Positions 47-18,565 of a stretch of DNA of 19,998 bases are shown here, piece after piece. The stretch covers positions 1-19,998 of the forward strand of contig DHIW01000064.1 of NCBI GenBank assembly GCA_002404015.1, written 5' to 3'. The notes under the pieces were generated by a model. That model was not told where the DNA came from and made no database searches. It saw nothing but the letters and a program-made list of their open reading frames with translations. Made by a program: the position numbers and the translations under genes. The stretch is from Chloroflexi bacterium UBA4736. GTDB lineage: Bacteria > Chloroflexota > Dormibacteria > Dormibacterales > Dormibacteraceae. The first letter of the stretch is position 1; each line of letters starts with the position of its first letter.

Positions 47-1372
47 CTAGGCGTCGGCTGCTGCCGCCGCCAGAGAGGCTGCTACTGGTAGGGCGTCCAC
101 CACTTCGCCCACGACGAGGACCGCCGGCCCTTCGAGTGGGGACTTGAGAACTGCGTTCGCGAGGCCGCCCAGGGGGGCCCGGATCACCGCCTGCTGCCTG
201 GTGGTGGCGCCTGACACCAACGCGGCCGGGCGCTGCAAGCCGACGACCCTGGCCAGCCGGGCGGCCGTCTCGCGGAGCGTGGCCAGTGGCATCAGGAGAA
301 TCAGCGTGTCGGCGGCCTCTGCCAGCCGCTCAAGCCGGGGCCCCTCCTCGTCGGCGGCGTGGGCGGTGGCGACCGCGAACGACGAGGCCACTCCGCGCAT
401 CGTCAGCGGGATTCCGGCCGCGGCCGGGGCGGCCAGGGCGGAGCTCACGCCAGGCACGACGATGACCTCGATCCCGGCGTCCAACAGCGCCGCCATCTCC
501 TCACCGCCGCGGCCGAACACGAACGGGTCACCGCCCTTCAGGCGTACGACTTCGTGGCCCGCCCGAGCGGCCTCGATCATCGCCTGGTTGATGGCAGTCT
601 GCTCGGTGCTCCGCCCGCCGGCCCGCTTTCCCACGTCCACCAGCTCTGCCTGGGGGCCGGCCAGGGCCAGGACGGCCGCCGAGACCAGGGCGTCGTGAAA
701 CACCACGTCCGCGTCGAAAAGGCGCTCCTGGGCGCCCAGGGTGAGCAGGTCGGGGTCGCCCGGGCCGGCGCCCACCAGCGCCACCCGCCCCGGCTGGGGG
801 CGGCCTGCCGACGCCGCGATGGCCGCCGCCTCGTAGTCGGCCTCGGACTGCCGGCCCTCGCGCAGCAGCAACCGCACCCCTGATCGCAGCAGCCGCCGGT
901 ACACGGCGGTCTGCGCGGCCAGCGGCACACCCTCGGCGCGAAGCGCCCGCCGGATGGCGCCGACTCGGGCCACGAAGGGGCCCCACTCAGCACCCAGCAT
1001 CCGCTCCAGCCGGGCCCTCAGGGCGGAGGCCAGGAACGGGCTTTCGCCCGATGTCGAGATCGCGACCAGGAGCGGCTCCCGGTTCACGACGGCGGGCATG
1101 ATGAACCGGCAGCGCTCTGGCCGGTCGACCACGTTCACCAGGATGTCCAGCCGCTCGGCCTCCTCCCAGACCCTGCGGTTGACCTCCTCGTCACCGGTGG
1201 CGTCGAAGACCAGCCGGGCGCCGGCCAGGCTCCCCTCCTCGAAAGTGGGCAGCTCTCGGACCGCGGCTCCTGCCGCCCGGAGCCCGGCCGACTTCTCTCT
1301 GGCCAGCTCGTCGGTGCCGAGCACGAGGCAGTCCTGGCCGCGCAGGTCCAGGAAGACCGGGTAGTACCTCAG
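47..1372 (-). CDS. cysG: Siroheme synthase: precorrin-2 dehydrogenase/ferrochelatase fused to uroporphyrinogen-III C-methyltransferase (CysG-like)
   Basis: Makes siroheme, the cofactor of sulfite and nitrite reductases, in the cytoplasm. The N-terminal ~150 residues match the CysG dehydrogenase/ferrochelatase module ([17 protein letters not shown], then ISTSGESP). The C-terminal ~240 residues are a SAM-dependent methyltransferase ([47 protein letters not shown]). The first GTG in frame (1324) would cut off the first beta strand. The frame is open upstream and reads [11 protein letters not shown], the usual CysG N-terminus, starting at a CTG (1372-1370) that overlaps the previous gene's TGA as CTGA and is preceded by GAGGAGG about 7 nt away. 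I therefore call a CTG start (441 aa), which is an inference. The nucleotide-binding motif usually reads GGGxVA but is GTDELA here. It is the last gene of the sulfur operon. Confidence 0.88.
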
Positions 1373-3015
1373 ACCACAGCCTCCTCGGCGTAGGCGGCGC
1401 GCAGGACGTCCGCCACCTCGGCACGGGTGAACTCGGCCGGCAGCTCCTGGCCGGAGGCCAGCAGCTCGCGCACGCGGGTCCCGCTCAGCGAGGCGTGCGC
1501 CTCGGCCGGGTGGGGGCAGGTGCGGGTGGAGGCCAGGCTGCCGCAGCGGCGGCAGAAGAAGGAGTTCTCGAAGCGGAGGATCTCGATGCCCAGCTCCTCA
1601 GGCGTGTACTGGTCGAAGATCCGCTGCGCGGCGTAAGTGTCGTAGTAGCTGCCGACCCCCGCGTGATCGCGGCCCACGATGAAGTGGGTGCAGCCGTGGT
1701 TGCGGCGCACTATGGCGTGGAACACGGCCTCCTTGGGCCCGGCGTACCGCATCCAGGCCGGGTTGGTCGCCAGCAGCACGCGCTCAGCCGGGAAGTAGCC
1801 CTCGAGCAGCGCCTCGTAGCAGCGCATGCGGACCTCGGCCGGGATGTCACCGCTCTTGGTCTCGCCGACCAGCGGGTGCAGCAGCAGGCCGTCCACGAGC
1901 TCCAGGGCGACCTTCTGCAGGTACTCGTGGGCCCTGTGCACCGGGTTGCGGGTCTGGAAGCCGACCATCGTGCGCCAGCCGCGCTTCTCCTTGACGGCCC
2001 TGACCTGGCTCGGGGTCAGGTCCTGCTCCGGGAAGCTGGTGGGCGGCCGGCCCAGCGCGGTCACCTTCCCTCCGAGCGCCAGCGACCCAGAGGCGCACAG
2101 GGCGGCCACGCCGGGGTGGGCGACCTCCTCCGTGCCGTAGACCGTCAGCGCCTCGGGCCGGTGGGGCGCCGCGAAGCCGCCGGCAACATCGAGGACCCCG
2201 ATCGGAACGCCTTCCCGCCAGAGTCCGACGCGATCCCCCTGCGGCGCAGCGTTCACCCGCAGCGTGACCGGGACCGTGAAGGGCTGGCCGCCGGCCAGCC
2301 GGCCGTTCTCGATCACGGCGCGGTAGTCGGCCTCGGTCAAGAAGCCGTCCAGCGGGCTCAGGGCGCCCGATCCCAGCATGTAGATGTCGGCCGCCTCGCG
2401 AGGGCCCACGTCGAGGCGGGGGAGTCCAGCCGCCTCGGCCCGGGCGTCAGCCAGCTTCTCGCCCTCGATCAGCCGGGTGGGGGCGGCTCCGGCGATCACG
2501 CGTCGCCGCGCCAGCTCGCCCAGGATCCGGTCCGTCGACTGCTGGACCGTCTCCAGCTCGCTGTCCACCACCAGCTCCGGGTTGAGCGGTGGCTCGTAGG
2601 GGTCGCTGACGCCCGTGAAGTTGGCGAGCTCGCCGGCCAGGGCCTTCTTGTAGAGGCCCTTCACGTCGCGCCGCACCAGCTCGTCCAGCGAGGCCCGGAC
2701 GTACACCTCGAAGAACCCGGGACTCTGGGCCCGGATCTCGTCGCGGATCTCCCGGTAGGGCGAGATCGCGGCCGCGATGGCCACGCCCCCGCTCCGGGCC
2801 ACGAGCCGCGCCACGTAGCCGATCCGGCGGATGTTGGTGTCCCTGTCTTCCTTGGAGAAGCCGAGCCCCTTGGACAGGTGGGTCCGGACCTCGTCGCCGT
2901 CCAGGATCTCGACGTGGCTGCCATGGGCCCGCAGCTCCGCCCCGACCCGTTCGGCGAGGGTCGACTTGCCGGCGCCCGAGAGGCCGGTGAACCAGATTAC
3001 GAAACCTCGACTCAT
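1369..3015 (-). CDS. Bifunctional APS kinase-ATP sulfurylase
   Basis: Activates sulfate: ATP sulfurylase makes adenosine 5'-phosphosulfate (APS) and APS kinase phosphorylates it to PAPS. The protein has 548 residues. Residues 1-175 are APS kinase, with P-loop GLSGAGKST at 11-19, DGDEVRTHL near 39-47 and [12 protein letters not shown] near 132-143. Residues 180-548 are ATP sulfurylase, with [10 protein letters not shown] at 354-363, GRDHAG at 448-453 and a zinc-type cluster Cys488-Cys491-Cys500-His502. The kinase is N-terminal, as in animal PAPS synthases. The ATG at 3015 overlaps the upstream stop as ATGA, so translation is probably coupled. The frame stays open upstream to 3678, but that part has no family resemblance and is antisense-like noise. 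No APS/PAPS reductase gene is present in the window. Confidence 0.95.
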
Positions 3016-4133
3016 GCTTCTCCCAGCCCCCAGCGGCGCTTGATCCGGCCATCGACAACTCCGAACACCCCGTCGATCGCGATCCCGACGGCGAAGATCA
3101 CGATCATCAGAGCCAGGAGCTGCTCGGCGTCCGAGAACTCCCTTGCGAACTGCAGCCGCACCCCGAGCGACGCCTGGTGGCCGACGATGCCCAGCAGCTC
3201 GCCGGCCATGAGGCTGCGCCAGGCGAAGGCCCAACCCTGCTTCAGACCGCCCACAAAAGCCGGCAGCGCGGCGGGCAGGATCACGTGCCGGTACAGGCCC
3301 AGGCCGCGCGCGCCCATGGTGCGGCCCACGCGGATCAGGAGCGGCTGCACGTGGTCCACCCCGCTCAGCAGCCCGCCGGCGATCGCGGGCGCCGCGCCCA
3401 GCAGCACCACGAAGAAGATCGCCCCCTCGCTGAGCCCGAAGAGGAGGACCGCGAGCGGAAACCAGGCGATCGAGGGCATGGACTGGAGCCCGAGGATCGC
3501 GGACCCCACGTCGTAGAGGTCCTCGACTTCGTCCGCCGGCTGGCTGTCCGCCGCCAGCTCGCCGTCGATCCAGATCTCGTGGTAGGCGCGGGTCCTCGGC
3601 GTCAGCGCGCCGACCAGCCCCGCCACGAAGGTGCGCGCCTGTGTCCGCAGCTCGTCCTGCTCGGGCGCCGGGCAGCACATGATGTTGCGCTGCTGGTCGC
3701 CGCAGCCCCCCAACGTGGTCATCAGGGCGTCGTTGATGGCCCGGATGCCCGCGTGCAGGTCGCCCTTCAGGACCCCGTGGAGCTGGAAGTCCTGGCGAGT
3801 GGTGACCCGGAGGCTGCCGTCACCCCAGCGGCCGGCGATCTCGTCGTGGGCGAGGTAGCCCTCGGGGCTGACCAGGCCGCCCGGGATCCGGGTCCTGATC
3901 ATCATCTGGTGGTGCTTGGCGTGGCCCCTGGCGCGGGCTTCGGCGCGCCGGTCGCGATCCTCCTGCTGGTAGACGCCGTGAAACTTCAGGATGTGGGCCG
4001 CCGGCTCCGTGAAGACAGGCGTGTCCTGGTCGAGCTCGGCCCTGATCGAGCCTCGGAGATGCCGGCTCTCGGCCTTTATCCGCTCGACCTTGGACTGGTC
4101 GTCGGGGAGTGGGGGAGTGGGGAGTGCGTTCAT
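3012..4133 (-). CDS. Chimeric ORF: N-terminal sulfite reductase fragment joined in frame to C-terminal SsuC/TauC-type ABC permease fragment
   Basis: Residues 1-208 are clearly the N-terminal part of a ferredoxin-type sulfite/nitrite reductase: [14 protein letters not shown] at 50-63, [10 protein letters not shown] at 77-86, [12 protein letters not shown] at 109-120, [11 protein letters not shown] at 147-157 and YHEIWIDGE at 184-192. From about residue 209 the sequence becomes the C-terminal part of a SsuC/TauC-type ABC transporter permease, with several hydrophobic helices and the cytoplasmic coupling motif [24 protein letters not shown] at 274-297. The reductase lacks its C-terminal half to two thirds, including the part that should carry the 4Fe-4S/siroheme cysteines. 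The permease lacks its first helices. The junction is near 3506-3512. Neither activity is likely to survive. A genomic deletion or an assembly join between two genes of one operon are both possible. AGCAGGT lies just before the ATG. Confidence 0.85.
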
Positions 4134-4194
4134 ACCTGCTGGGTTCGGATGGACGGAGGATGCGGCCGGCCGGCGGGCCGGGAAAACGCGCTCG

Positions 4195-4250
4195 ATGGGC
4201 TCTCACGCCCGGATCGCGTCAGCTACAGGAGCAGCTCGAGAGGCGCCCAT
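4195..4250 (-). promoter_or_regulatory. Candidate attenuator helix overlapping the end of the leader ORF
   Basis: On the transcribed strand, ATGGGC-gcc-TCTC (4250-4238, inside leader codons 20-24) can pair with GAGAGCCCAT (4204-4195, after the leader stop). This gives ten base pairs with one 3-nt bulge. The enclosed loop holds both terminal Cys codons and the leader stop codon, so a ribosome paused there would block the helix. A GC-rich self-complementary stretch (GGCCCGCCGGCCGGCC, 4182-4167) follows before the ribosome binding site. The pairing was found by eye; its energy and alternatives have not been computed. Confidence 0.42.
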
Positions 4251-4308
4251 AGTCGAGCTCGCGGCGGCGCGCGAGATACGTGCAGGCGAACTCGCCCTGG
4301 GGAGGCAT
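4219..4308 (-). CDS. Cysteine-containing leader peptide (uORF) of the sulfur operon, leaderless
   Basis: A 29-codon ORF whose ATG lies 6 nt downstream of the -10 hexamer TACAGT, so transcription probably begins at or next to the start codon. The peptide ends LSSCSCS and stops at 4221-4219, 85 nt before the sulfite reductase start. Cysteines are at 9, 26 and 28. The segment RRRELDYGRLSSCSC resembles, from memory, the R-R-x-x-D-x-x-R-x-S-S-x-x-C pattern of actinobacterial leader peptides before sulfur genes. Mycobacterial leaderless uORFs with terminal cysteines are known cysteine-responsive attenuators. The likely role is that, when Cys-tRNA is scarce, the ribosome pauses on the terminal Cys codons and changes downstream RNA folding to allow operon expression. 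The promoter spacing, ORF and cysteines are visible in the sequence; the mechanism is inferred. Confidence 0.72.
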   Translation of the reverse strand: MPPQGEFACTYLARRRELDYGRLSSCSCS

Positions 4309-4314
4309 CGCCCG

Positions 4315-4343
4315 ACTGTAAGGGCGCGCGCTCTCGAGGGCAA
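4315..4343 (-). promoter_or_regulatory. Sulfur operon promoter (-35 TTGCCC, 17-bp spacer, -10 TACAGT)
   Basis: The -35 hexamer is at 4343-4338 and the -10 hexamer at 4320-4315, separated by exactly 17 bp. The leader ATG at 4308 lies 6 nt beyond the -10, the expected place for a transcription start, so the first transcribed codon would be the leader start. It is the best sigma-70-type match I found in the window. Confidence 0.6.
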
Positions 4344-4352
4344 GGGCTCCCT

Positions 4353-4400
4353 GTCCCCAAAATGACGGACCCGAACGCGCCGGTCGTACCTTTTGGGGAC
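4353..4400. promoter_or_regulatory. Perfect 10-bp inverted repeat between divergent genes, candidate operator
   Basis: GTCCCCAAAA (4353-4362) and TTTTGGGGAC (4391-4400) are perfect inverted copies separated by 28 bp. The near arm starts 10 bp upstream of the sulfur operon -35, an activator-like position. The far arm lies about 46 bp before the ATG of the divergent HTH gene. A binding site for a dimeric regulator, perhaps that HTH protein, is the simplest reading. There is no T-tract, so a terminator role is unlikely. The 4134-4446 interval otherwise holds the leader ORF and promoter described separately. Confidence 0.5.
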
Positions 4401-4446
4401 GCCGCGGGCCGCAGAATTCGCCGCGGCTCTTTCCGGTTTCACCCCG

Positions 4447-4887
4447 ATGGCCCATTGGACGATCAGCGTGAACGGCGTCAGGGCGGCTCAGCAGCTGGAG
4501 CGGCTGTTCGGTGCCTTCGCCCGCCTCGGCGTGCCCGTGCGGTCCGGCCGGCTGGGCCACGGCCATGTGCACCTGGTCCTCGAACCGGGGGCGCCGACAC
4601 GGCTCCTCCCGCAGGAGCTGGTCCGGCTCGGCTTCGACGCGGTCACGGAGCCCGGCGAGCACCTTCTCGAGGCCCTCTCCGAGAGGGAGCGCGAGCTCAT
4701 GGAGCACCTGGCCGCCGGGCTCCAGATGAAGGAGGCGGCCCGCCGCATGGGCATCGAGACCAACACTGCGCGCGAGTACTGGGCACGGGTCAAGCGCAAG
4801 TGGGGGGTCAGGACCTTCGGCCAGGCGGTCAGCACCTGGATGACCGAGCTAGCGTCCGGGTCCGACGGCCACGGCGCAGCGGGTTAG
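4447..4887 (+). CDS. LuxR/GerE-type helix-turn-helix regulator
   Basis: A 146-residue protein whose residues 77-126 form a GerE-like DNA-binding domain (LSERERELMEHLAAGLQMKEAARRMG, then a recognition helix around TNTAREYWARVKRKWG). The first ~75 residues match no receiver or ligand-binding domain that I recognise. They read like a short alpha/beta fold with a Gly/His-rich turn (RLGHGHVHLVLEPG). I chose the ATG at 4447. An in-frame TTG at 4393 lies inside the inverted repeat and has no ribosome binding site, so it is unlikely. No clear Shine-Dalgarno precedes 4447. The gene is divergent from the sulfur operon across a shared regulatory region, which suggests, without proving, that it controls that operon. 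Confidence 0.8.
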   Translation: MAHWTISVNGVRAAQQLERLFGAFARLGVPVRSGRLGHGHVHLVLEPGAPTRLLPQELVRLGFDAVTEPGEHLLEALSERERELMEHLAAGLQMKEAARRMGIETNTAREYWARVKRKWGVRTFGQAVSTWMTELASGSDGHGAAG

Positions 4888-4968
4888 CCAGGAAGTCAGC
4901 TGGCGCATCGATCGCGCTGAGCCCAGGCTGTTTCGGCTTGTGCTGGACCGGATCCCGGCGAATGTGTC

Positions 4969-4974
4969 TAGTGT
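4969..4974 (+). promoter_or_regulatory. -10 element TAGTGT for a leaderless desaturase transcript
   Basis: TAGTGT fits the TANNNT -10 pattern and is followed after 7 nt by an in-frame GTG at 4982. This spacing would place the transcription start on the start codon. No convincing -35 is visible at 17 bp. Confidence 0.4.
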
Positions 4975-4981
4975 GGGACGG

Positions 4982-6067
4982 GTGCCATCACCCACCAGGT
5001 CCCCCGCCCTCGTGTTCCCCAACGACTACGCCGAGCTCAAACGAAGGGTGACGGCCGCCGGTCTGCTGGATAAGCGGCCTGGCTACTACGTCGCGACGAT
5101 GTCGGCCAACCTTGTCCTCGTCGGGCTGTTGGTCGCGGCCCTGGTGATCTTCCGCTCCAACCTGCCGATCCTGCTGGCCGTCGCGGCCGGGATGGGATTC
5201 ATGGGCGCTCAGCTGGGCTTCGTGGGTCACGACGCCGGCCACCGCCAGATGTTCGCGGCGCCCTGGAAAAACGTGGCGGCGGGACTCTTCTGGGGCAACC
5301 TGGTCATGGGTATGAGCCCGTCCTGGTGGAACGACAAGCACAACGCCCATCACGGCAACCCCAACCACACCGATATGGATCCCGACATCGACACGCCGAT
5401 CGTCGCCTATTCCGCCGAGCAGGCCCGCGGCAAGGCGCGATGGGCCCGGTGGATCGTTCGCCGCCAGGCCTACCTGCTGTTCCCCCTGCTCTCGCTGCTG
5501 GCCTGGAACATGCACTTGAGCTCGGTCGAGTTCCTGCTGAGGCGGCGCTCAAAGCGCACCCGCCCGGAGGTCGTGGCGAATCGCACGAAGTACCGCCGGA
5601 TCGAGATCGCGCTGCTTCTCGTCCACCTCCCGTTCTACTTGGGCGGCCTGGTGCTCCTCCTCGGCTGGTACGCGATCCCGGTGATCCTGATCCACCATGC
5701 CGTCTGGGGCATCTACATCGGGTGCTCGTTCGCGCCCAACCACAAGGGGATGCCGATGCTCGACGATTCGAGCCAGCTCGACTTCTTCCGGAAGCAGGTG
5801 CTGACCGCGCGCAACGTCCGGCCCAGCGTCGTCCGCGACTACCTCTACGGCGGGCTGAACTACCAGATCGAGCACCACCTCTTCCCGGCCTGCCCGCATC
5901 CTCACCTGCCGGCGCTGCGCCGGCTCGTCAGACAGTTCTGCTCCGATGTCGGCGTGCCCTACCACGAGGTCGGCGTCGTCGATTCCTACCGCGAGCTGCT
6001 GGGCTTCCTGAACGCGGTCGGGCGCAGCCTCGACGAGCCACCGGCGGGCGTCTTCGCGGCCGCCTGA
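4982..6067 (+). CDS. Membrane fatty-acid desaturase (paralog 1)
   Basis: A di-iron membrane desaturase that introduces double bonds into acyl chains. With the GTG start at 4982 it has 361 residues. The three histidine boxes are HDAGH at 83-87, HNAHHGNPNH starting at 120 and QIEHH at 295-299. The Q in the third box is typical of front-end/DesA3-like acyl desaturases. Hydrophobic helix pairs lie between boxes one and two and before box three. The frame is open back to a GTG at 4940, but no ribosome binding site is seen there. Homology with the paralog at 12407-13453 begins only around FPNDYAELK. The start at 4982 has a TANNNT box 7 nt upstream, so I prefer it. The regioselectivity and the electron donor cannot be read from sequence. 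Confidence 0.9.
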   Translation: MPSPTRSPALVFPNDYAELKRRVTAAGLLDKRPGYYVATMSANLVLVGLLVAALVIFRSNLPILLAVAAGMGFMGAQLGFVGHDAGHRQMFAAPWKNVAAGLFWGNLVMGMSPSWWNDKHNAHHGNPNHTDMDPDIDTPIVAYSAEQARGKARWARWIVRRQAYLLFPLLSLLAWNMHLSSVEFLLRRRSKRTRPEVVANRTKYRRIEIALLLVHLPFYLGGLVLLLGWYAIPVILIHHAVWGIYIGCSFAPNHKGMPMLDDSSQLDFFRKQVLTARNVRPSVVRDYLYGGLNYQIEHHLFPACPHPHLPALRRLVRQFCSDVGVPYHEVGVVDSYRELLGFLNAVGRSLDEPPAGVFAAA

Positions 6068-7632: not shown

Positions 7633-8415
7633 ATCGGCGACGCGCTGCTGTCAGTCCAGAGCCTGAGCCTCCGGTTCGGCGGAGTCGTCGCACTCGACTC
7701 CGTCTCCTTCGACGTCGCGCCGGGCCAGATCGTCGGCGTCATCGGCCCCAACGGGGCGGGCAAGACCAGTCTTTTCAACTGCGTCACCAGGCTGTACCGG
7801 CCCTCATCCGGGAGCATCCTGCTCGCAGGCAAGGAGCTGCTCGACTGCCGCCCGCACGAGGTCGTCAGGCAGGGCGTCGCGCGGACGTTCCAGAGCCTGG
7901 CCCTCTTCCAGCGCATGAGCGTGCTGGACAACGTGCTGGTCGGCGCCCACACGCAGATCAAGGGCGCGGGCACACTGTCTTCGGCCCTCATGCTGCCCCG
8001 GCAGCGGACGGCCGAGCGGGAGGCTCGTGAGCTGGCCCTGCAGGCACTGCAGGAGGTAGGCCTGCGCGGCCTCGCGGACAGCTACGCGGCCGGCTTGCCC
8101 TTCGGCCAGTTGAAGCGCCTCGAGCTGGCCCGCGCCCTGGTCGCCCGGCCCCGCCTCCTGCTGCTGGACGAGCCGGCCGGCGGTCTCAGCCACGACGAGC
8201 TTCGCGAGCTGAGCGACCTGATCCTACGGATCCACAAAGACTTCGAGGTGACCATCGTCCTGGTCGAGCACCACATGAACCTGGTCATGGGCATCTCGGA
8301 CCAGGTGGTGGTGCTCAACTTCGGGCGCAAGATCGCGGGTGGCACTCCCGACGAGGTCCGCAACGACCCCGGGGTCATCGAGGCATACCTGGGGGCCGCG
8401 AGTGGCGCTGCTTGA
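7633..8415 (+). CDS. livG: Branched-chain amino acid-type ABC transporter ATP-binding protein LivG
   Basis: ATPase subunit of a LIV/HAAT-family importer. The reading frame is open from 7564, and the Walker A GPNGAGKT, signature LPFGQ, Walker B LLLLDEP and H-loop LVEHH are all present, as is the long LivG-type insertion before the signature. There is no ATG, GTG or TTG in frame before 7915, which lies far past Walker A. The protein must therefore begin at a non-standard codon, or a base is wrong. ATC at 7633 sits 7 nt after TAGACT. CTG at 7645 would give the usual (M)LSVQSLSLRFGG beginning. I give the ATC position (260 aa); the real start is uncertain by four codons. Its 3' end overlaps livF by 14 nt. 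Confidence 0.88.
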   Translation: MGDALLSVQSLSLRFGGVVALDSVSFDVAPGQIVGVIGPNGAGKTSLFNCVTRLYRPSSGSILLAGKELLDCRPHEVVRQGVARTFQSLALFQRMSVLDNVLVGAHTQIKGAGTLSSALMLPRQRTAEREARELALQALQEVGLRGLADSYAAGLPFGQLKRLELARALVARPRLLLLDEPAGGLSHDELRELSDLILRIHKDFEVTIVLVEHHMNLVMGISDQVVVLNFGRKIAGGTPDEVRNDPGVIEAYLGAASGAA

Positions 8416-9109
8416 GCTGCGCGGCGTGGCCGCCCGGTACGGCCACCGCCGCGTGTTGCACGAGGTCGACATGCAGGTGGAGGAGGGGGAGATCGTCGCC
8501 ATCCTGGGCGCCAACGGGGCCGGCAAGACGACCACCCTGCGTGCCATCTCCGGCACTGTCACGCGAGAGGGCGAGATCAACTTCCTGGGCCGCTCGCTGC
8601 TGGCTCAGCGGGCCTCCGACACTGCTCGTCTGGGGATCGCCCACGTCCCCGAGGGGCGGGGCACGATGGGCCAGCTCAGTGTCCTGGAGAACCTCCGACT
8701 GGGCGCCTACATGCGCCGCGACCGCGAGGTGGGCCGCGACTTCGAGCGCGTCTACGACTACTTTCCGGTGCTGCGCGAGCGGCGCGGCCAGGCGGCCGGC
8801 ACGCTGAGCGGCGGAGAGCAGCAGATGCTGGCCATCGGCCGCGCCTTGATGGCCCGGCCCAAGCTGCTCCTGCTGGACGAGCCATCCCTGGGGCTGGCCC
8901 CGCTCATCGCGAAGACCATCTTCGGGATCATCAGCAGCATCAACAAGGACGCCGGCACGGCGGTCCTCCTCGTCGAGCAGAACGCGGTCGCAGCGCTCGA
9001 GATCTCGCGCCGGGCCTACGTGCTCGAGGTGGGCCGCGTAGCGGTCAGCAACACCAGCGAGAAGCTCGGCCAGGACGACTCCATCCGGCGTTCCTACCTG
9101 GGGTATTGA
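8402..9109 (+). CDS. livF: Branched-chain amino acid-type ABC transporter ATP-binding protein LivF
   Basis: Second ATPase of the importer, 235 residues from a GTG at 8402. It begins MALLELRGVAARYG, the usual LivF opening. Walker A GANGAGKT is at 36-43, the segment HVPEGRGTMGQLSVLENLRLGAY is typical of LivF, and the signature LSGGEQQ is followed by Walker B LLLLDEP and the switch region VEQNA. The start lies 14 nt inside the end of livG, and the TGA is 5 nt before the livH ATG, so translation is probably coupled. An open frame extends upstream to 8339 but only overlaps livG further. Confidence 0.93.
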   Translation: MALLELRGVAARYGHRRVLHEVDMQVEEGEIVAILGANGAGKTTTLRAISGTVTREGEINFLGRSLLAQRASDTARLGIAHVPEGRGTMGQLSVLENLRLGAYMRRDREVGRDFERVYDYFPVLRERRGQAAGTLSGGEQQMLAIGRALMARPKLLLLDEPSLGLAPLIAKTIFGIISSINKDAGTAVLLVEQNAVAALEISRRAYVLEVGRVAVSNTSEKLGQDDSIRRSYLGY

Positions 9110-9114
9110 GCGGG

Positions 9115-9996
9115 ATGAGGGATTTCGTCGAGCAGGTGGTGTCCGGGCTTGCCGCGGGAGGCATCTACGCCAGCCTGGCCCTGGCCCTGGTGCTGATCTA
9201 CAGCGCCATGGGCCTCGTCAACTTCGCGCAGGGCGAGTTCGCGATGTTCGCAACCTTCATCTGCTGGACGCTCCTTGTCTCCCTGCACCTGCCGTACGTG
9301 CTGGCCTTCGTCCTTTCGGTGGCCGCCGCCTTCGGGGGCGCGATGGCGATCGAGCGGGTGATCATCCGGCCGTTCGAGAAGGGATCGCAGCTGAGCGTGG
9401 TGATCGTGACCCTGGCGCTGCTGGCGGTCGTGAACTCGATGGCAGGCGCGATCTGGACCTACGTCCCCAAGCCGTTTCCATCGCCGTTTCCGACCAAGCC
9501 GATCGAGTTGGGCGGCCTCCTGTTCTCAATCCTCGACATGAGCGTCATCGGCGTCAGCGTCGTCGTGCTGATCCTCATGTATCTGCTCTTCAACTACACG
9601 AAGTTGGGGCTCGCGATGCGGGCCGCCGCGCTCTACCCGGAGGTCGCCGAGCTGCTCGGCGTGCGGACCGGGCTCATGCTCGGCCTTGGCTGGGGGCTGG
9701 CCTCAGCCGTGGGCGCGGTGTCCGGGATCCTGGTCGCGCCCAACCTCTTCCTGGAGCCGAACATGATGCAGGGCGTCATCATCTACGCCTTCGCCGCGGC
9801 GGTGCTGGGCGGTATCGACAGCCCGATCGGAGCGGTTGTCGGGGGCCTTCTGCTGGGAGTCGCGCTGGCCTTGATCGGGGCCTACATCCCGGTTCTGGCC
9901 GACCTCCGGCTGGCGATCACGCTGGGCCTGATCGTGCTCGTGCTCGTGGTCCGGCCCTCGGGCCTCTTCGGCCGCCACCAAGTGAGCCGAGTCTGA
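9115..9996 (+). CDS. livH: Branched-chain amino acid-type ABC transporter permease LivH
   Basis: Integral membrane permease of 293 residues with about eight hydrophobic helices. The opening VVSGLAAGGIYASLALALVLIYSAMGLVNFAQGEFAMFA carries the LivH hallmark G-x-x-x-N-F-A-Q-G-E. The C-terminal half has GLAMRAAALYPEVAELLGV, the coupling-helix motif contacting the ATPases, and FAAAVLGGIDSPIGAVVGGLLLG. I chose the ATG at 9115; an in-frame TTG at 9106 overlaps the livF stop and adds only three residues. GAGCGGG precedes the ATG closely. The stop TGA overlaps the livM ATG by one base. Confidence 0.93.
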   Translation: MRDFVEQVVSGLAAGGIYASLALALVLIYSAMGLVNFAQGEFAMFATFICWTLLVSLHLPYVLAFVLSVAAAFGGAMAIERVIIRPFEKGSQLSVVIVTLALLAVVNSMAGAIWTYVPKPFPSPFPTKPIELGGLLFSILDMSVIGVSVVVLILMYLLFNYTKLGLAMRAAALYPEVAELLGVRTGLMLGLGWGLASAVGAVSGILVAPNLFLEPNMMQGVIIYAFAAAVLGGIDSPIGAVVGGLLLGVALALIGAYIPVLADLRLAITLGLIVLVLVVRPSGLFGRHQVSRV

Positions 9997-11015
9997 TGCC
10001 CTCCTGGCAGCGGCTCGCCGCGGCGGGTCTGGTCTTGCTCGTCGCGCTGGGGTTGCCGTTCGTGGCCACGGGATTCCAGACGCTGGAGCTCTCCTACGCC
10101 CTGATCTTCGCGATCGCCATCCTGGGGTTGAACATCCTGACCGGTTTCAGCGGCCAGATCTCACTCGGCCACGGCGCCTTTATCGCCATTGGTGCGTTCG
10201 TGATGGCGATCGGCGTCCACCTCTACAACATCAATTACCTGGCCACGATCCCGGTCGCGGGCGTGGTCTGCGGAGTCCTGGGTTTCGCCATCGGGGTGCC
10301 CGCACTCCGCCTGGAGGGCATCTACCTGGCGCTGGCAACGTTCGCGCTGGGGGTGGCGACTCCGAACATACTCAAGAAGCCGACCAACATCACCGGCGGC
10401 GTGAAGGGCATCATCCTGCCCCCGGCCACGTCACCAGTGCCCGACCAGGTTTCCGACGAGCAGTATTTCTACTTCGTCTGCCTGCTGGTGGCGGCGATCC
10501 TGTTCTTCCTGGCCTGGAGCATCCTGCGCGGCCGCACGGGCCGGGCCTGGCGGGCGATCAGGGACGGTGAGCTGGCCGCCACCTCGTTCGGCATCAACAT
10601 CGCGTCATACAAGACGCTGGCCTTCGCCGTAAGTGCGGCGTACGCGGGCGTGGCCGGCGCGCTCTACGGCATCGCGACCGGGTTCGTGAGTGCCGACGCC
10701 TACCCGTTCCAGCTCTCCATCGCACTCCTGGTGGGCGCCATCATCGGCGGCATCGCCTCGCTGGAGGGGGCCCTCATCGGCGGCCTCCTCAGCGAGTTCC
10801 TGCCCATCTACTCGCAGCAGCTGCTTTTCCCGATCAGCAAGCAGCTTGCGAACGCGGCCCCGGGCGCCACCCAGGGCCTTCTCCTGCTGGCCATAATGTT
10901 TCTCGCCCGAGATGGGATCGCTGGCGTGCTCAGGAGCGGATATCTGCGGCTTCGCCTGCGGCTGACCCGAGAACCTTCGCCAGTTGACACAAAGCAGCCT
11001 CCGCCCGCAGTCTGA
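9996..11015 (+). CDS. livM: Branched-chain amino acid-type ABC transporter permease LivM
   Basis: The partner permease, 339 residues with multiple membrane helices. It contains LNILTGFSGQISLGHGAFIAIGAF, the LivM signature, and later GRAWRAIRDGELAATSFGINIASYKTLAFAVSAAYAGVAGAL, the coupling motif (RDxExxAxxxGI) and following helices. The start codon shares one base with the livH stop (TGATG). The hydrophilic tail after ~315 is basic and proline-rich. A 48-nt gap follows before livK. Confidence 0.93.
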   Translation: MPSWQRLAAAGLVLLVALGLPFVATGFQTLELSYALIFAIAILGLNILTGFSGQISLGHGAFIAIGAFVMAIGVHLYNINYLATIPVAGVVCGVLGFAIGVPALRLEGIYLALATFALGVATPNILKKPTNITGGVKGIILPPATSPVPDQVSDEQYFYFVCLLVAAILFFLAWSILRGRTGRAWRAIRDGELAATSFGINIASYKTLAFAVSAAYAGVAGALYGIATGFVSADAYPFQLSIALLVGAIIGGIASLEGALIGGLLSEFLPIYSQQLLFPISKQLANAAPGATQGLLLLAIMFLARDGIAGVLRSGYLRLRLRLTREPSPVDTKQPPPAV

Positions 11016-11063
11016 TACACCCGGTTCGGGCATTAACCGACACAGAGGGAGGAGACGAGCAAG

Positions 11064-12332
11064 TTGAGAAGCAAACGTATCGGCGTTGCCCTTGTCACGG
11101 CCGTGAGCTTCGTGCTGGCCGCCTGCGGCAACAGCAGCGGCGGCGGGACGGCCGCCAACACGGCCAGCGACGTCGGGGTGACCAAGGACTCCATCCTGCT
11201 GGGCAGCACGATGCCCCTCAGCGGCCCGGCAGCCGCCTACGGCACCATCGCCAAGGCGATGGACGCCTATTTCAAGTCCGTCAACGACGCGGGCGGGGTC
11301 AACGGACGCAAGATCACGTTCAAGTACCTTGACGATGCCTACAACCCGGCTCAGACCGTGCCGCTCACCAAGCAGCTGGTCGAGCAGGACCAGGTCTTCG
11401 CCATGGTGGGTGGCCTGGGAACCCAGGACCAGACCTCCGTTCGCGACTACCTGAACTCCAAGAAGGTGCCCCAGGTCTTCGTCTTCACGGGAGCGACCAC
11501 GTTCTCGGCGGAGTTCAAGAAGTACCCCTACACGTTCGGCTGGCAGCCCGTCTACCAGGGCGAGTCGCTGATCTACGCGCAGTACCTGCTCAAGAACACG
11601 CCCAACGCCAAGATCGGCATCATCTACCAGAACGACGACTACGGGCAGGACTACCTCGCGGGCCTCGTCAAGGGCCTCGGTGACAAGGCCAGCATGATCG
11701 TCGACAAGGAGAGCAATGACGTTGGGGCCCCCGACCTCAGCTCGCAGATCCTCAAGCTGAAGGCGTCCGGGGCGGACACCTTCTTCGTCTTCGAGACCCC
11801 TTCGCCCGCGATCAAGTCGATCGTGACGGCGTTCAAGGTGGGCTGGAAGCCGACCATCTACCTGAACTCGGTGGCGGCACCATTGCCCTACGTCGGTGCG
11901 GCCGCCAAGGCGGCGGGCGACCCCAAGGCCGTGGACGGCATCCTGACCGTGTCCTACCTGAAGGACCCCATCGACCCCGCCCAGGCCAGTGACGCGGCCG
12001 TCCAGCAGTACAAGCAGTTGATGGCGAAGTACTACCCAGACGGCAAGATCGAGGACAGCTTCAACTTCGTAGGCTTCGCGGCCGCCTGGAGCACGGTGGA
12101 CGTGCTGAAGAAGGCGGGCAACAACCTAACGCGGAAGTCATTGCTCGATGCGCTCGGCACCTTCAACGAGCCGGACAACCCCTTCCTCTACAAGGGGATC
12201 ACGGCCAAGAACAGCTCCAGCGATCACTACACGATCACCCAGGAGTACCAGGCGAAGTACGACGCGGCGCTGGGCGACTACAGGCCGATCAGCCCGCTGA
12301 TCGACGTGCGGGGCAAGATCAAGTTCCCGTAA
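11064..12332 (+). CDS. livK: ABC transporter substrate-binding lipoprotein, LivK/HAAT family
   Basis: Extracytoplasmic solute-binding protein of 422 residues. A basic start (MRSKR) and hydrophobic stretch lead to a lipobox FVLAAC with Cys21, so it is a lipoprotein. A Ser/Gly-rich linker follows, then the periplasmic-binding-protein type I fold: ILLGSTMPLSGPAAAYG, a mature N-terminal signature of the family; ITFKYLDDAYNP; and IGIIYQNDDYGQDY. The TTG start is supported by GGGAGGAG about 9 nt upstream. Family members bind branched-chain amino acids, amides, urea or aromatic acids, and the substrate cannot be told here. It is the last gene of the operon, followed by a terminator. Confidence 0.93.
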   Translation: MRSKRIGVALVTAVSFVLAACGNSSGGGTAANTASDVGVTKDSILLGSTMPLSGPAAAYGTIAKAMDAYFKSVNDAGGVNGRKITFKYLDDAYNPAQTVPLTKQLVEQDQVFAMVGGLGTQDQTSVRDYLNSKKVPQVFVFTGATTFSAEFKKYPYTFGWQPVYQGESLIYAQYLLKNTPNAKIGIIYQNDDYGQDYLAGLVKGLGDKASMIVDKESNDVGAPDLSSQILKLKASGADTFFVFETPSPAIKSIVTAFKVGWKPTIYLNSVAAPLPYVGAAAKAAGDPKAVDGILTVSYLKDPIDPAQASDAAVQQYKQLMAKYYPDGKIEDSFNFVGFAAAWSTVDVLKKAGNNLTRKSLLDALGTFNEPDNPFLYKGITAKNSSSDHYTITQEYQAKYDAALGDYRPISPLIDVRGKIKFP

Positions 12333-12406: not shown

Positions 12407-13453
12407 CTAGGCCTCGGCCGCCTCGCCGCGGCGGGGGCTGCCTGGCCGCAGCGGCGCGCCGATGTCGTGCAGGAAGGAGAGGATCTCCCGGTACGACTGC
12501 AGGATCGAGGTCTCGTAGTAGGGCACGCCGCGATCGGCGCAGAACTGCCTGACGATCGCATGCGCCCGGCGCACGTTGCGCCGGGGCATGGTTGGGAACA
12601 GGTGGTGTTCGATCTGATAATTGAGGGACCCGTAGAGCAGGTCCGTGAGCGGGTGCGAGGCCACGTTGCGAGCGGTCAGCACCTGTGAGCGCAGGAAGTC
12701 CATCTCGGCCTCGGCCTCAACCTGGGGCATCCCCTTGTGGTTGGGCGCGAACACGGACGCCAGGTAGAAGCCGCCGACGCACTTCTGGATGACCACGACC
12801 AGGAGAGCCCGCCAGGGCCCGACCAGCACGACCAGCAGCGCCAGGTAGGCCAGCGCGTGGAGTGCCAGCCCGATCGCTTCCGCCCGGCGGTGGCGCGAGG
12901 GCCCGCGGGCGAGGAACCTCACCCCGGACACGTGCATGACCCAGCCCAGGCCGAAAAGCAGGGGGAAGAAGAGGTAGGCCTGGTTGGCGGCGATGAACCG
13001 GCCCAGGCCTCGCTTGTCGGCGGCCTGCTCGGGTGTATACGCGATCACCCCCACGCTGATGTCGGGGTCAAGCTCGACGTGGTTGGGGTTGCCGTGGTGG
13101 CGGTTGTGCTTGTCGACCCACCAGCCGTGGCTCATGCCGAGCAGCAGGTTGCCGGTGATGAAACCGATCACCGTGTTGGCGCGCCGGCTGGCGAACATCT
13201 GCTGGTGCCCGGCGTCGTGCAGCTGGAAGCCGAGCTGGCCTGACACCACACCCAGCATCCCCGCCGTCAGCGCCGTCACCCAGGGGTTGTCGACCAGGCC
13301 CAGGATCGCGAAGCAGGCCGCGAAGGCCAGCGTGTTGGTGGTCAGGAGGAGGACGTAATAGCCAGGCTGCTTGCGGAGGAGCCCGGCCTGCTCGACCAGG
13401 CGCTTCAGCTGCGCATAGTCGGAGGCGATGGCGGAAGTCGGCAAGACATCCAC
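12407..13453 (-). CDS. Membrane fatty-acid desaturase (paralog 2)
   Basis: A di-iron membrane desaturase of 348 residues, clearly paralogous to the one at 4982-6067 over its whole length. Shared segments include DYAxLKR, KQPGYY, HDAGH (79-83), HNRHHGNPNH (from 116), APNHKGMP (236-243), LTARNV and NYQIEHHLFP (278-287). The start at GTG 13453 (MDVLPTSAIASDYAQLK) is chosen by alignment with that paralog. The frame is open upstream to a TTG at 13534, but that part is unrelated and overlaps repeats. No clear -10 or Shine-Dalgarno precedes 13453. A structured element (copy C) and a short hairpin lie upstream on its side. It converges with the liv operon terminator. Confidence 0.88.
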   Translation of the reverse strand: MDVLPTSAIASDYAQLKRLVEQAGLLRKQPGYYVLLLTTNTLAFAACFAILGLVDNPWVTALTAGMLGVVSGQLGFQLHDAGHQQMFASRRANTVIGFITGNLLLGMSHGWWVDKHNRHHGNPNHVELDPDISVGVIAYTPEQAADKRGLGRFIAANQAYLFFPLLFGLGWVMHVSGVRFLARGPSRHRRAEAIGLALHALAYLALLVVLVGPWRALLVVVIQKCVGGFYLASVFAPNHKGMPQVEAEAEMDFLRSQVLTARNVASHPLTDLLYGSLNYQIEHHLFPTMPRRNVRRAHAIVRQFCADRGVPYYETSILQSYREILSFLHDIGAPLRPGSPRRGEAAEA

Positions 13454-13496
13454 TCTGAGGGAGGGCTCGAGCCAATTGCAAATGGCGTCCGGCCGC

Positions 13497-13513
13497 ACGC
13501 ACGGTTCGTGCGT
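13497..13513. promoter_or_regulatory. Short perfect inverted repeat upstream of desaturase 2
   Basis: ACGCACG-GTT-CGTGCGT is a perfect 7-bp inverted repeat with a 3-nt centre, 44 bp before the chosen desaturase start. There is no T-tract. It could be a small operator or a hairpin in the 5' leader; nothing else identifies it. Confidence 0.35.
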
Positions 13514-13539
13514 CCTGGCGGACGGCTCCCTCAAGACTT

Positions 13540-16526: not shown

Positions 16527-17570
16527 CTAGAGCCGGCTGCCGTCCACCGTTCCCGTCACGTTGCCGTCGGCGTCAACCTGGACGACGATCTGGAGCTGGA
16601 CCTGGTCGCCCGACTGGGTAGCGCATTGGGCCACCATCGTCGAGCGCTGGATCTGGGTGACCGAGCCCGTGCAGACGGGCCCGGAGCCGGAGGGCCGCAG
16701 CACGACCGTGGAGTCGTTGACGACGAGCCGGTTGCCGGTCTGGGTCTGCCCGATCAGCCTCACCTGCATGCTGCCGCCGGGCGCGCCGCTGAGGGTGGTG
16801 TCGTACTGGAGCGCGGTCTGGGCGGCGCTCCCCTGGCGCTGGTAGCGGCCCTGCAGCGTGGACTGGAAGGGCAGCGGGAGGCTGCTGGCCACGACGGGTG
16901 CGGGAAGCCTCGAGCCGGTTCCGTGGCCGTAGTTGGCGGTCTGGTTCCAGCCCGGCTGCAGCGGCCCACTGAAGGCCCAGCCGCCGAGCAGCAGGAGCCC
17001 GACCCCGGCCACCGTGGCGGGTGCGAAGGCCCGCCGCCCCTCGCGGTCGGGACTGAGCAGCCGGGCCGCCAGGAGGGCGGCGACCAGGAAGACGCTGCCG
17101 GCGTAGATGTAGAAGGCCCAGGTGGCCTGGGAGTCGCTGCCGCTGCCGAGCCCGTGGACGACCACCGCCAGGTAGGCGGCAAACGCCAGGTAGTGGAAGC
17201 GGCGCCACCACGCAAAGCCTATCCAGCGCTGGATCCAGGAACTGGCGTAAAGAGCCGCCATCAAGTAGGCGGCAGTGACCCCCAGGCCGACCCAGAGCGG
17301 GCGGTAATGGGCGGCCAGTGGAACCGCGATCTCAGCCGGGGTGAACTTCATGAAGGGGTCGATGTAAAGGGCGACCCCATGAAAGAGCGTGAAGACGAGC
17401 GCCAGGATCGTCGCGAAGCGGTGAACCTCGTTGGTCACGAAGCGCGGGAGCGCGAGCGTGCGCCACTTGAGGCTGAGAACGATCCCAAGGCAGACCGACG
17501 TCGTGAGCAGCGCAAAGGCGACCAACCCGCTGGCGCGGGCGGCATACCAGGCGACCTGGCTCCAGTCCAT
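16527..17570 (-). CDS. Ferric-reductase-like transmembrane protein with C-terminal extracytoplasmic domain
   Basis: A 347-residue membrane protein. The first ~200 residues are a ferric-reductase-like heme membrane domain with five to six helices. Histidine pairs suited to heme binding are His50/His64 (HRFATILALVFTLFHG) and His126/His139 (WRRFHYLAFAAYLAVVVHG). No FAD/NAD(P)H-binding domain follows. Instead there is another helix near 186-203 and a Ser/Thr/Gln-rich, probably exported beta-type domain (about 205-347) with one Cys pair (VCTG, AQCAT). The start ATG overlaps the apbE stop by one base (TGATG), so they are cotranslated. Electron transfer across the membrane, perhaps to a flavinylated partner, is the likely role; the partner is not evident. 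Confidence 0.82.
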   Translation of the reverse strand: MDWSQVAWYAARASGLVAFALLTTSVCLGIVLSLKWRTLALPRFVTNEVHRFATILALVFTLFHGVALYIDPFMKFTPAEIAVPLAAHYRPLWVGLGVTAAYLMAALYASSWIQRWIGFAWWRRFHYLAFAAYLAVVVHGLGSGSDSQATWAFYIYAGSVFLVAALLAARLLSPDREGRRAFAPATVAGVGLLLLGGWAFSGPLQPGWNQTANYGHGTGSRLPAPVVASSLPLPFQSTLQGRYQRQGSAAQTALQYDTTLSGAPGGSMQVRLIGQTQTGNRLVVNDSTVVLRPSGSGPVCTGSVTQIQRSTMVAQCATQSGDQVQLQIVVQVDADGNVTGTVDGSRL

Positions 17571-18565
17571 CAGGCCGGCCAGGCCCCGACGCGGATCGGG
17601 TCACCGTCTTCTGGCACGAGGAGGCCGGCCAGTCCGCGCGCTCGGAGGAAGTCGGCGCCGGCGCCGGCGCCGAGCACGAAGGCGACCTTGGCCGCCACCT
17701 CCGCCTCCCCGCATTGTGCGGCGCAGACGCTGGCCGACCAGAGCCCGGTGTTCGCCGGCAGACCGGTGCGCGGGTCGAGAAGGTGGTGGCGGCGCAGCTC
17801 GCCCTGCTTCCAGGCGTGGCGGCCAATCCCGGACGTGGCCAGCGCCCCGGACCACAGCTCGACCAGCTGGCTGCCCGAGCGCAGCTCGACGGCTCCCGGC
17901 CAGGCCGCCGCCCGGGGCGGCGAGCCGTGGACGCGGACGTCACCACCTGCCTCGACCGCGGCCATCCGGTGGCCGGCGGCCGCCAGGAGCTCGATGGCCG
18001 AGTCCACGGCCAGCCCCTTGCCGATCCCGCCCAGGTCCAGGGCCGCCCCGACAGGGAGCTCGACGATCCGGGCCTGGCGGTCGAGCCGGATCCCGCGCCA
18101 GGCTCCGCCGGGCTGTGACGCGACCGCGGCGGCCGGCTGATCCGATTCCATCAGCTCGAAGCTGCGCTCGTAGCCGAGGGCGGCGAGCTGGGGCAGCAGC
18201 GTAGGGTCGTAGACACCGTCGCTGGCCTCGGCCGCCGACAGCGCAGTGGCGACGACCTCCGCCAGAAGGTCGCTCACGACCACCGGCGTGCCGGCGCCGG
18301 CGTTCAACCGGCTGAGCTCGCTGCCGGCCTGGAATCGACTGAGCCGCGACTCCCACTCCTCGAACAGGGCGCGCGTGAGGGGCAGCGCGTCCGAGCGGCC
18401 GGCCGCGCTCAGGACCGAGACCCGAGTGCCCATGGCAGGGAACTCGTCACGCCGCAGCGCGGCCGGGATCAGCAGGTCAGGATCGACGGGTTCTGAAGAC
18501 CGGGCCGCTGGTTCCAGCCGAGACTCCTCCCTGGTTGCTGGGCTGGCCACCGAAAAAGCCGCCAT
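17570..18565 (-). CDS. apbE: FAD:protein FMN transferase (ApbE family)
   Basis: Covalently attaches FMN from FAD to Thr/Ser of extracytoplasmic redox proteins. Family motifs, in order, are FPAMGTRVSV (42-51), SRFQAGSELSRLN (76-88), DGVYDPT (116-122), DLGGIGKG (177-184), GGDVRVHG (207-214) and HLLDPRTG (261-268). Near 288-296 the usual Mg-site A-D-x-x-A-T reads A-E-V-A-A-K, so both expected ligands are changed; this may be a subfamily trait. No signal peptide is evident. The ATG at 18565 overlaps the preceding small gene by 89 nt. No later start lies before the conserved AMGT, so the long overlap seems real. It is cotranscribed with the ferric-reductase-like gene. Confidence 0.9.
   Translation of the reverse strand: MAAFSVASPATREESRLEPAARSSEPVDPDLLIPAALRRDEFPAMGTRVSVLSAAGRSDALPLTRALFEEWESRLSRFQAGSELSRLNAGAGTPVVVSDLLAEVVATALSAAEASDGVYDPTLLPQLAALGYERSFELMESDQPAAAVASQPGGAWRGIRLDRQARIVELPVGAALDLGGIGKGLAVDSAIELLAAAGHRMAAVEAGGDVRVHGSPPRAAAWPGAVELRSGSQLVELWSGALATSGIGRHAWKQGELRRHHLLDPRTGLPANTGLWSASVCAAQCGEAEVAAKVAFVLGAGAGADFLRARGLAGLLVPEDGDPIRVGAWPA

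Follow-up and report, generated by a model that had tools for sequence, protein, structure and literature searches.

Upstream of a sulfate-assimilation operon in a Dormibacteria-like bacterium lies a small open reading frame (uORF). We think it fairly likely that this uORF encodes a leader peptide by which cysteine is sensed, that its mRNA is leaderless or nearly so, and that ribosome pausing would relieve a repressive fold of the leader. Ribosomes would start at the 5' AUG of the uORF and, when Cys-tRNA is scarce, would pause at the C-x-C codons just 5' of its stop. Because the paused ribosome would then cover the P0 hairpin and the start of the P1 helix, as placed in the relatives, the repressive fold could not form and the first gene would be translated more; with sufficient cysteine, the ribosome would depart and the fold would close. 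The Cys codons stand at a constant distance from the stop, inside or beside leader structure, and passages of two papers (PMC13236596, PMC9031893) report the same arrangement for mycobacterial cysteine leaders. We infer the leaderless start, the pausing, the cysteine response and its direction, and an output that is translational rather than transcriptional.

The leader frame and its conservation

The hexamer and ORF elements named in the preliminary description of the window (the whole stretch of 19,998 nucleotides analyzed here) were all found by direct reading: TTGCCC, 17 nt, TACAGT, 6 nt and an ATG opening a 29-codon ORF that ends in SSCSCS (Table 1). A gap of 85 nt separates its stop from the next gene start (4133). 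No Rfam riboswitch or T-box reached the gathering score in the window.

Table 1. Positions of the leader elements and operon genes in the window
Feature	Position	Strand	Description	Basis
Proposed -35-like hexamer TTGCCC	4338..4343	-	17 nt to TACAGT	Direct reading; consensus scan negative
-10-like TANNNT box TACAGT	4315..4320	-	6 nt 5' of the uORF ATG	Direct reading; TANNNT spacing in relatives
uORF	4219..4308	-	ATG 4308-4306, 29 sense codons, TGA 4221-4219; putative Cys leader peptide MPPQGEFACTYLARRRELDYGRLSSCSCS	Direct reading; conservation
Putative sensor codons AGC TGC TCC TGT AGC (Ser-Cys-Ser-Cys-Ser)	4222..4236	-	Last Cys codon is TGT	Codon alignment of 23 core leaders
P0 hairpin AGCUGC-UCCU-GUAGCU	4221..4236	-	Over the last Cys codons	Predicted pair probabilities 0.86-1.00
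Predicted hairpin GACGCG...CGCGTT	4185..4220	-	Starts at the stop codon; possible P1 counterpart	Folding
Sulfite reductase gene, start and first 207 codons	3513..4133	-	Siroheme domain PF01077 missing	PF03460
ABC transporter permease, C-terminal half	3012..3512	-	In-frame continuation	PF00528; junction by comparison with permeases of L001, L002, L003 and L006
APS kinase/ATP sulfurylase gene	1369..3015	-	Start overlaps previous stop (ATGA)	PF01583, PF01747; start by direct reading
Siroheme synthase-like gene	47..1324	-	True start probably further upstream	PF00590, PF13241, PF14824

The frame goes beyond chance, since the core pattern recurs at the same position in relatives and a profile of 15 relatives, built with the window left out, ranked it first of 18,838 frames from the window and 53 non-Dormibacteria loci (649 kb), with an E value of 9.9e-8 against 0.21 for the next best. 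The loci came from a scan of species genomes that gave 447 sulfite reductase loci, the best 80 of which were kept; 27 of these (L001-L026 and L031) form what we call the Dormibacteria group, delimited by identity and, for those checked, by belonging to a single class set, and the remaining 53 are the others. Among the 27 Dormibacteria-group loci, 25 carry the leader-core pattern 5' of sulfite reductase, versus none of the 53 others, with 2 further matches elsewhere in the same best 80 of 447. One of the two misses, L005, has a degenerate frame ending in TARCVCH, and the other, L018, has Ns in its assembly at the leader site. In L012, L016 and L031 leader and sulfite reductase are separated by a TauE-like gene, an assignment tested with Pfam for L016 only. 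The comparison of leader ORFs in related genomes that had been suggested at the outset showed conservation of the uORF C-terminus 5' of sulfite reductase. One member of the group, L004 (JAJPKS010000078.1), is labeled Bacillota; its genome falls into the class set of the Dormibacteria genomes and has the same leaders, which makes a mistaken label probable.

A class-wide profile search matched the leader at an E value of ≤1e-3 in 34 of 110 class genomes and at ≤0.1 in 56. Across 400 genomes of the phylum, with at most 20 candidates per genome scored, it was found at ≤1e-3 in 19, 17 of them in the class set; the matches in genomes G444 and G170 were weak and lay inside long frames. Another 15 sulfite reductase loci from the phylum (L172-L186), taken with flanks of up to 1.5 kb, gave no match to a looser leader pattern, and the leader peptide had none in plasmids. 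Searches of the open-licence literature listed no work on leader peptides of the Cys type for Dormibacteria or Chloroflexota.

The core alignment holds 23 leaders, the window and 22 loci, with the divergent L005, L017, L020, L022, L024 and L025 omitted. Exactly 18 codons run from L[TA]RRR to the stop in all 23, and Leu, three Arg, Asp and the two last Cys are invariant, with up to five different codons in the Arg columns despite the fixed residue. Synonymous change drops to zero over the last seven codons of the 17 core leaders ending in CASCFCS or CASCVCS. Judged from this alignment, the uORF is coding, with constraint beyond its residues. The weight given to the alternation of Ser and Cys, which had been put forward in place of a plain Cys run, is not borne out: what is constant in 23/23 is C-x-C with a single codon between it and the stop, where x is Ser, Ala, Phe or Val.

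The two last Cys codons of every core leader read TGC and then TGT; as background, long GC3-rich ORFs of L001-L026 use TGT for 106 of 924 Cys codons (11%). TGT is likewise the last Cys codon in the six divergent leaders and in 13 of another 15, a set made up of 14 leaders that precede other genes and of L165, which precedes a sulfite reductase remnant; the exceptions are L159 and L165. As for two loci added from other searches, L122 has TGT and L121 another codon. Selection seems to be aimed at the TGT codon itself, because the sequence 3' of it varies. Slow wobble reading of UGU is our guess at the reason; the fixed codon is a sharp, testable oddity.

The claim of a promoter stands in part. 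A scan of window positions 3000-5000 for consensus sigma-70 promoters found none, while TANNNT lies 5 to 13 nt 5' of the start codon in 22 of the 23 core leaders, against a mean of 1.93 and a maximum of 5 in 300 rounds of mononucleotide shuffling (six of the 23 starts are GTG, and some were picked by us among several candidates). The signature described for leaderless genes in a passage of PMC3160421 is a TANNNT whose first T stands about 12 nt 5' of the start. The window matches this distance exactly, and the distances of 12 to 18 nt in the relatives, equal to gaps of 6 to 12 nt between box and start codon, would leave 0 to 6 nt of leader, a spacing that fits a leaderless or near-leaderless mRNA. 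Adjoining the leader promoter, a divergent gene (4393-4887, plus strand) encodes a DNA-binding domain of the LuxR type (PF00196) and is a candidate regulator.

Genes behind the leader

Leaders of this kind also stand before other sulfur genes. We fetched 16 extra places, dropped L169 by eye (a long frame without Cys) and added L121 and L122. Carbonic anhydrase follows the leader in L160 and L163 (PF00484) and, by sequence, in L121, L122, L156, L159, L161, L162, L166 and L167; cysE-cysK follows in L168 (hexapeptide and PLP families), L170 (PLP) and L164 (by sequence), and a TauE gene in L155. Siroheme synthase (cysG) and cysteine dioxygenase were found behind the leader at a single locus each, L157 and L158, respectively. 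Sulfite reductase, carbonic anhydrase, cysE-cysK, TauE, cysG and cysteine dioxygenase genes thus apparently form a regulon, to judge by their common leader. The enzyme encoded at L158 degrades cysteine, which is at odds with a simple logic of making cysteine when it is short.

Another feature concerns the sulfite reductase of L004, L012, L016, L017, L018, L020, L022, L024, L025 and L031, which carries an N-terminal Cys motif (e.g., MCDTCGC or MCKVCGC), one that we take to recall the N terminus of HypB.

Leader RNA structure and mode of control

In leaders of the CASCFCS type, the P1 helix begins beside the stop codon and closes 28 to 34 nt 5' of the gene. Its alignment was cut by hand into nine distinct rows standing for 14 loci, with the helix-less leaders (L010, L023, L001-L004, L006 and the window) omitted, and 98.1% of its cells are paired. 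Double-sided changes occupy seven cells, a number reached by 1 of 500 shuffles, and the covariation score was 0.407 versus 0.170 (0 of 500 shuffles), falling to ≤0.130 when the helix was slid; two of the five measures were not above shuffles (290 and 210 of 500). A search test over 34 leaders found no P1 in six (L001, L002, L006, L023, L159 and the window) and gave fractions of 0.013 to 0.19 where the helix was found, except in L026 (0.40) and L010 (0.51), with a combined p of 1.1e-4 over 22 chosen, non-independent leaders. The consensus fold of 12 relatives contains the P0 hairpin without variation; this fold is uninformative, since P0 is invariant and the SD-side helix nearly so.

A second kind of pairing links the Cys block to the start region of the first gene. 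In L001-L003 the complement of the SD is found in this block (TGCTCCTG or GCTCCTG), with a predicted pairing of 97 to 99%. Placing a ribosome over the Cys codons in the model increases the openness of the SD from 0.01-0.02 to 0.31-0.66; this opening is not specific to the Cys codons, because neighboring codons and the stop also open the SD. By energy, SD pairing was significant in none of 33 leaders when compared with 95 other SD-bearing starts, and among 19 leaders it fell below 0.05 in 2 by recoding and in 5 by shuffling. The longest unbroken run between Cys block and start region gave 0.030 to 0.054 in L001-L003 and 0.08 to 0.11 in 9 of 13 CASCFCS and 5 of 10 carbonic anhydrase leaders; the sum over 13 representatives chosen by us had a p of 0.025. 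Taken over all these leaders, the pairing is marginal. Unbroken runs join TGCGCC to GGCGCA in 9/13 CASCFCS leaders; in 6/10 carbonic anhydrase leaders it is TGCCTC or GCCTC that is joined to the SD. An SD followed by GCA occurs in 20 of 33 leader genes versus 10 of 95 other starts, counts that are uncorrected for kinship. The start region is open in cysE leaders, which counts against SD masking there.

For the window itself, a ten-pair helix between codons 20 to 24 and a stretch 3' of the stop had been proposed as the switch. We rejected it, as its duplex energy equals that of shuffled sequence (fraction 0.504). The helix can be drawn with interruptions, its longest unbroken run (4205-4200) having 6 pairs, and the expected number of pairs between codons 20 to 24 and 4218-4195 is 3.0 in the ensemble. 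The predicted hairpin that starts at the stop codon lies 51 nt from the gene start, versus 28 to 34 nt for P1 of the relatives, and the position test for a P1 at the usual place was not above chance. Pairing between the window's Cys block and start region was not above chance either (fractions of 0.53 to 0.99), with 0.862 and 0.978 in the recoding and shuffling tests and 0.534 in the longest-run test. In the ribosome model, SD openness rose from 0.47 to only 0.52-0.68 with the ribosome at codons 26 to 28 and was 0.39 with it at the stop. For the family, a switch in the leader is therefore plausible; for the window it is unproven. That a pausing ribosome would open an RNA structure is suggested by the covarying helix of some relatives, with nothing significant in the window.

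The same Cys-sensing uORF could instead act on transcription, through a choice between terminator and antiterminator or through access of Rho once translation ends. Passages of PMC13236596 offer a precedent in the uORF transcription attenuation of ilvB1 of M. tuberculosis, and attenuators of the trp/ilv type resemble our leaders in that a leader ORF with codons for the product of the pathway precedes hairpins, as described in parts of PMC13236596 and PMC8079986. Moreover, a hairpin with a T-rich tail is present in 7 of 34 leaders, five of them related sulfite reductase leaders (L007, L008, L011, L021 and L026) and the others L006 and L168. However, no terminator-like site was found in the remaining 27 or in the window leader, which sets them apart from the trp/ilv type and for which reason we favor a translational output; an intrinsic terminator was rejected as a feature of the group, and we regard a transcriptional output as unlikely.

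In the window as assembled, the first gene behind the leader is broken. Sulfur genes do lie downstream, as had been claimed, although the first of them consists of a sulfite reductase fragment that continues in frame into half of a permease. Its first 207 residues are 97% identical to the N-terminal part of P0001, a complete assimilatory sulfite reductase (573 aa) on a 2540-base ENA contig. In L006 a distance of 5.07 kb, holding a cysH-like gene and transporter genes (named by look), separates the start of sulfite reductase from that of APS kinase; in the window this distance is 1.12 kb. Compared to L006, about 3.95 kb are missing, from sulfite reductase codon 207 to mid-permease, with a junction near 3513/3512 across which the frame stays open. 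The data fit either a deletion or a metagenome misassembly. If the fusion is real, the enzyme cannot work. Such an operon might be decaying, its leader switch degenerated and the role of the uORF lost in this organism, which would agree with the missing siroheme domain and the run into the permease gene, with the failed structure tests of the window and with the weak SD before 4133. We consider this improbable, as the window has kept the core residues, both Cys codons, the stop and the TANNNT spacing, and the junction may be a misassembly, given that an intact enzyme of 97% identity exists in another record. Elsewhere in the window, two fatty acid desaturase genes (PF00487; 4940-6067 on the plus strand and 12407-13534 on the minus strand) flank a set of branched-chain amino acid ABC transporter genes (8339-12329), and a ferric-reductase-like membrane gene (16527-18565, minus strand) lies next to an ApbE gene.

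Finally, what is conserved could be a peptide acting in trans (e.g., metal- or redox-binding via C-x-C) rather than a cis sensor, a reading favored by LTRRR and the Asp, which are conserved far from the Cys codons and needless for a pure codon sensor. We consider it very improbable: LTRRR could act in the ribosome tunnel, and the frozen synonymous sites and fixed TGT of the Cys block speak for a cis role at the level of RNA and ribosome, as does the position before many different sulfur genes.

Relation to known leader peptides

Excerpts of PMC4633059 describe Cys-rich leaderless uORFs before cysA2, Rv0485 and nirA in mycobacteria, and a cysteine response has been demonstrated in M. smegmatis (work cited in passages of PMC9031893 and PMC13236596). 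The Dormibacteria leaders resemble the mycobacterial ones (Ms5788A, Ms4527A) in being short uORFs with C-terminal Cys codons before sulfur genes, including sulfite reductase, and probably in their place at the mRNA 5' end. They differ in belonging to the class Dormibacteria and not to Actinomycetota, and in having a spaced C-x-C whose last Cys is TGT, while the Cys codons of the mycobacterial leaders are contiguous; only L156 and L160 have contiguous Cys codons, 5' of the C-x-C. Of the mycobacterial type of control that had been proposed for the window, the Cys-ending, probably leaderless uORF before sulfur genes is strongly supported by conservation, TANNNT spacing and sub-cut-off matches of sister peptides, and the Ser/Cys alternation and the switch helix fall away.

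Those matches concern two NCBIfam models with curated cut-offs, NF042933 (Ms5788A, before cysA2; 45 bits) and NF042934 ("putative leader peptide," cis_reg_atten, 19 positions; 27 bits). The actinobacterial Cys-rich leader peptides of these two models are the closest relatives described so far, and the NF042934 family is mainly actinobacterial. The window peptide matched no NCBIfam model at an E value of ≤10, while the best sister peptides reached 3e-5 (23.5 bits) and 4e-5 with NF042934 and 3.8e-5 (23.3 bits) with NF042933, both under the cut-off; the L155 peptide matched NF042936 (Ms4527A; by its name, the uORF before nirA) at 0.0027. Searching the 110 class genomes with NF042934 gave nothing above its cut-off, and the ten best places were sulfite reductase leaders; only these best matches count, because the threshold of ≤10 also fires in 10 of 14 control genomes. 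The core LTRR-x-x-D-x-x-R...C of NF042934 is present in the Dormibacteria leaders. By cut-off, then, the window peptide is outside NF042933 and NF042934, though it resembles them, and the class-wide leader family is probably related to both.

A wider reading, which we hold tentatively and at somewhat less than even chances, is that Dormibacteria control a cysteine regulon through one leader-peptide family before at least six kinds of sulfur genes, that cysteine is sensed by codon choice (the near-constant, wobble-read UGU) as well as by residue and that the family is common to Actinomycetota by descent or transfer. If true, this would be an old, general control of sulfur assimilation.

Cysteine control by leader peptides is known from mycobacteria, and like leaders now appear in an uncultured soil class of another phylum, where they provide dozens of natural variants for comparison. 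The control gene itself, a uORF of 29 codons, is missed by standard gene calling. Such a leader could let sulfur operons sense cysteine without a protein regulator, and if it is a cysteine control in Dormibacteria, the mechanism would be broad and perhaps ancient.
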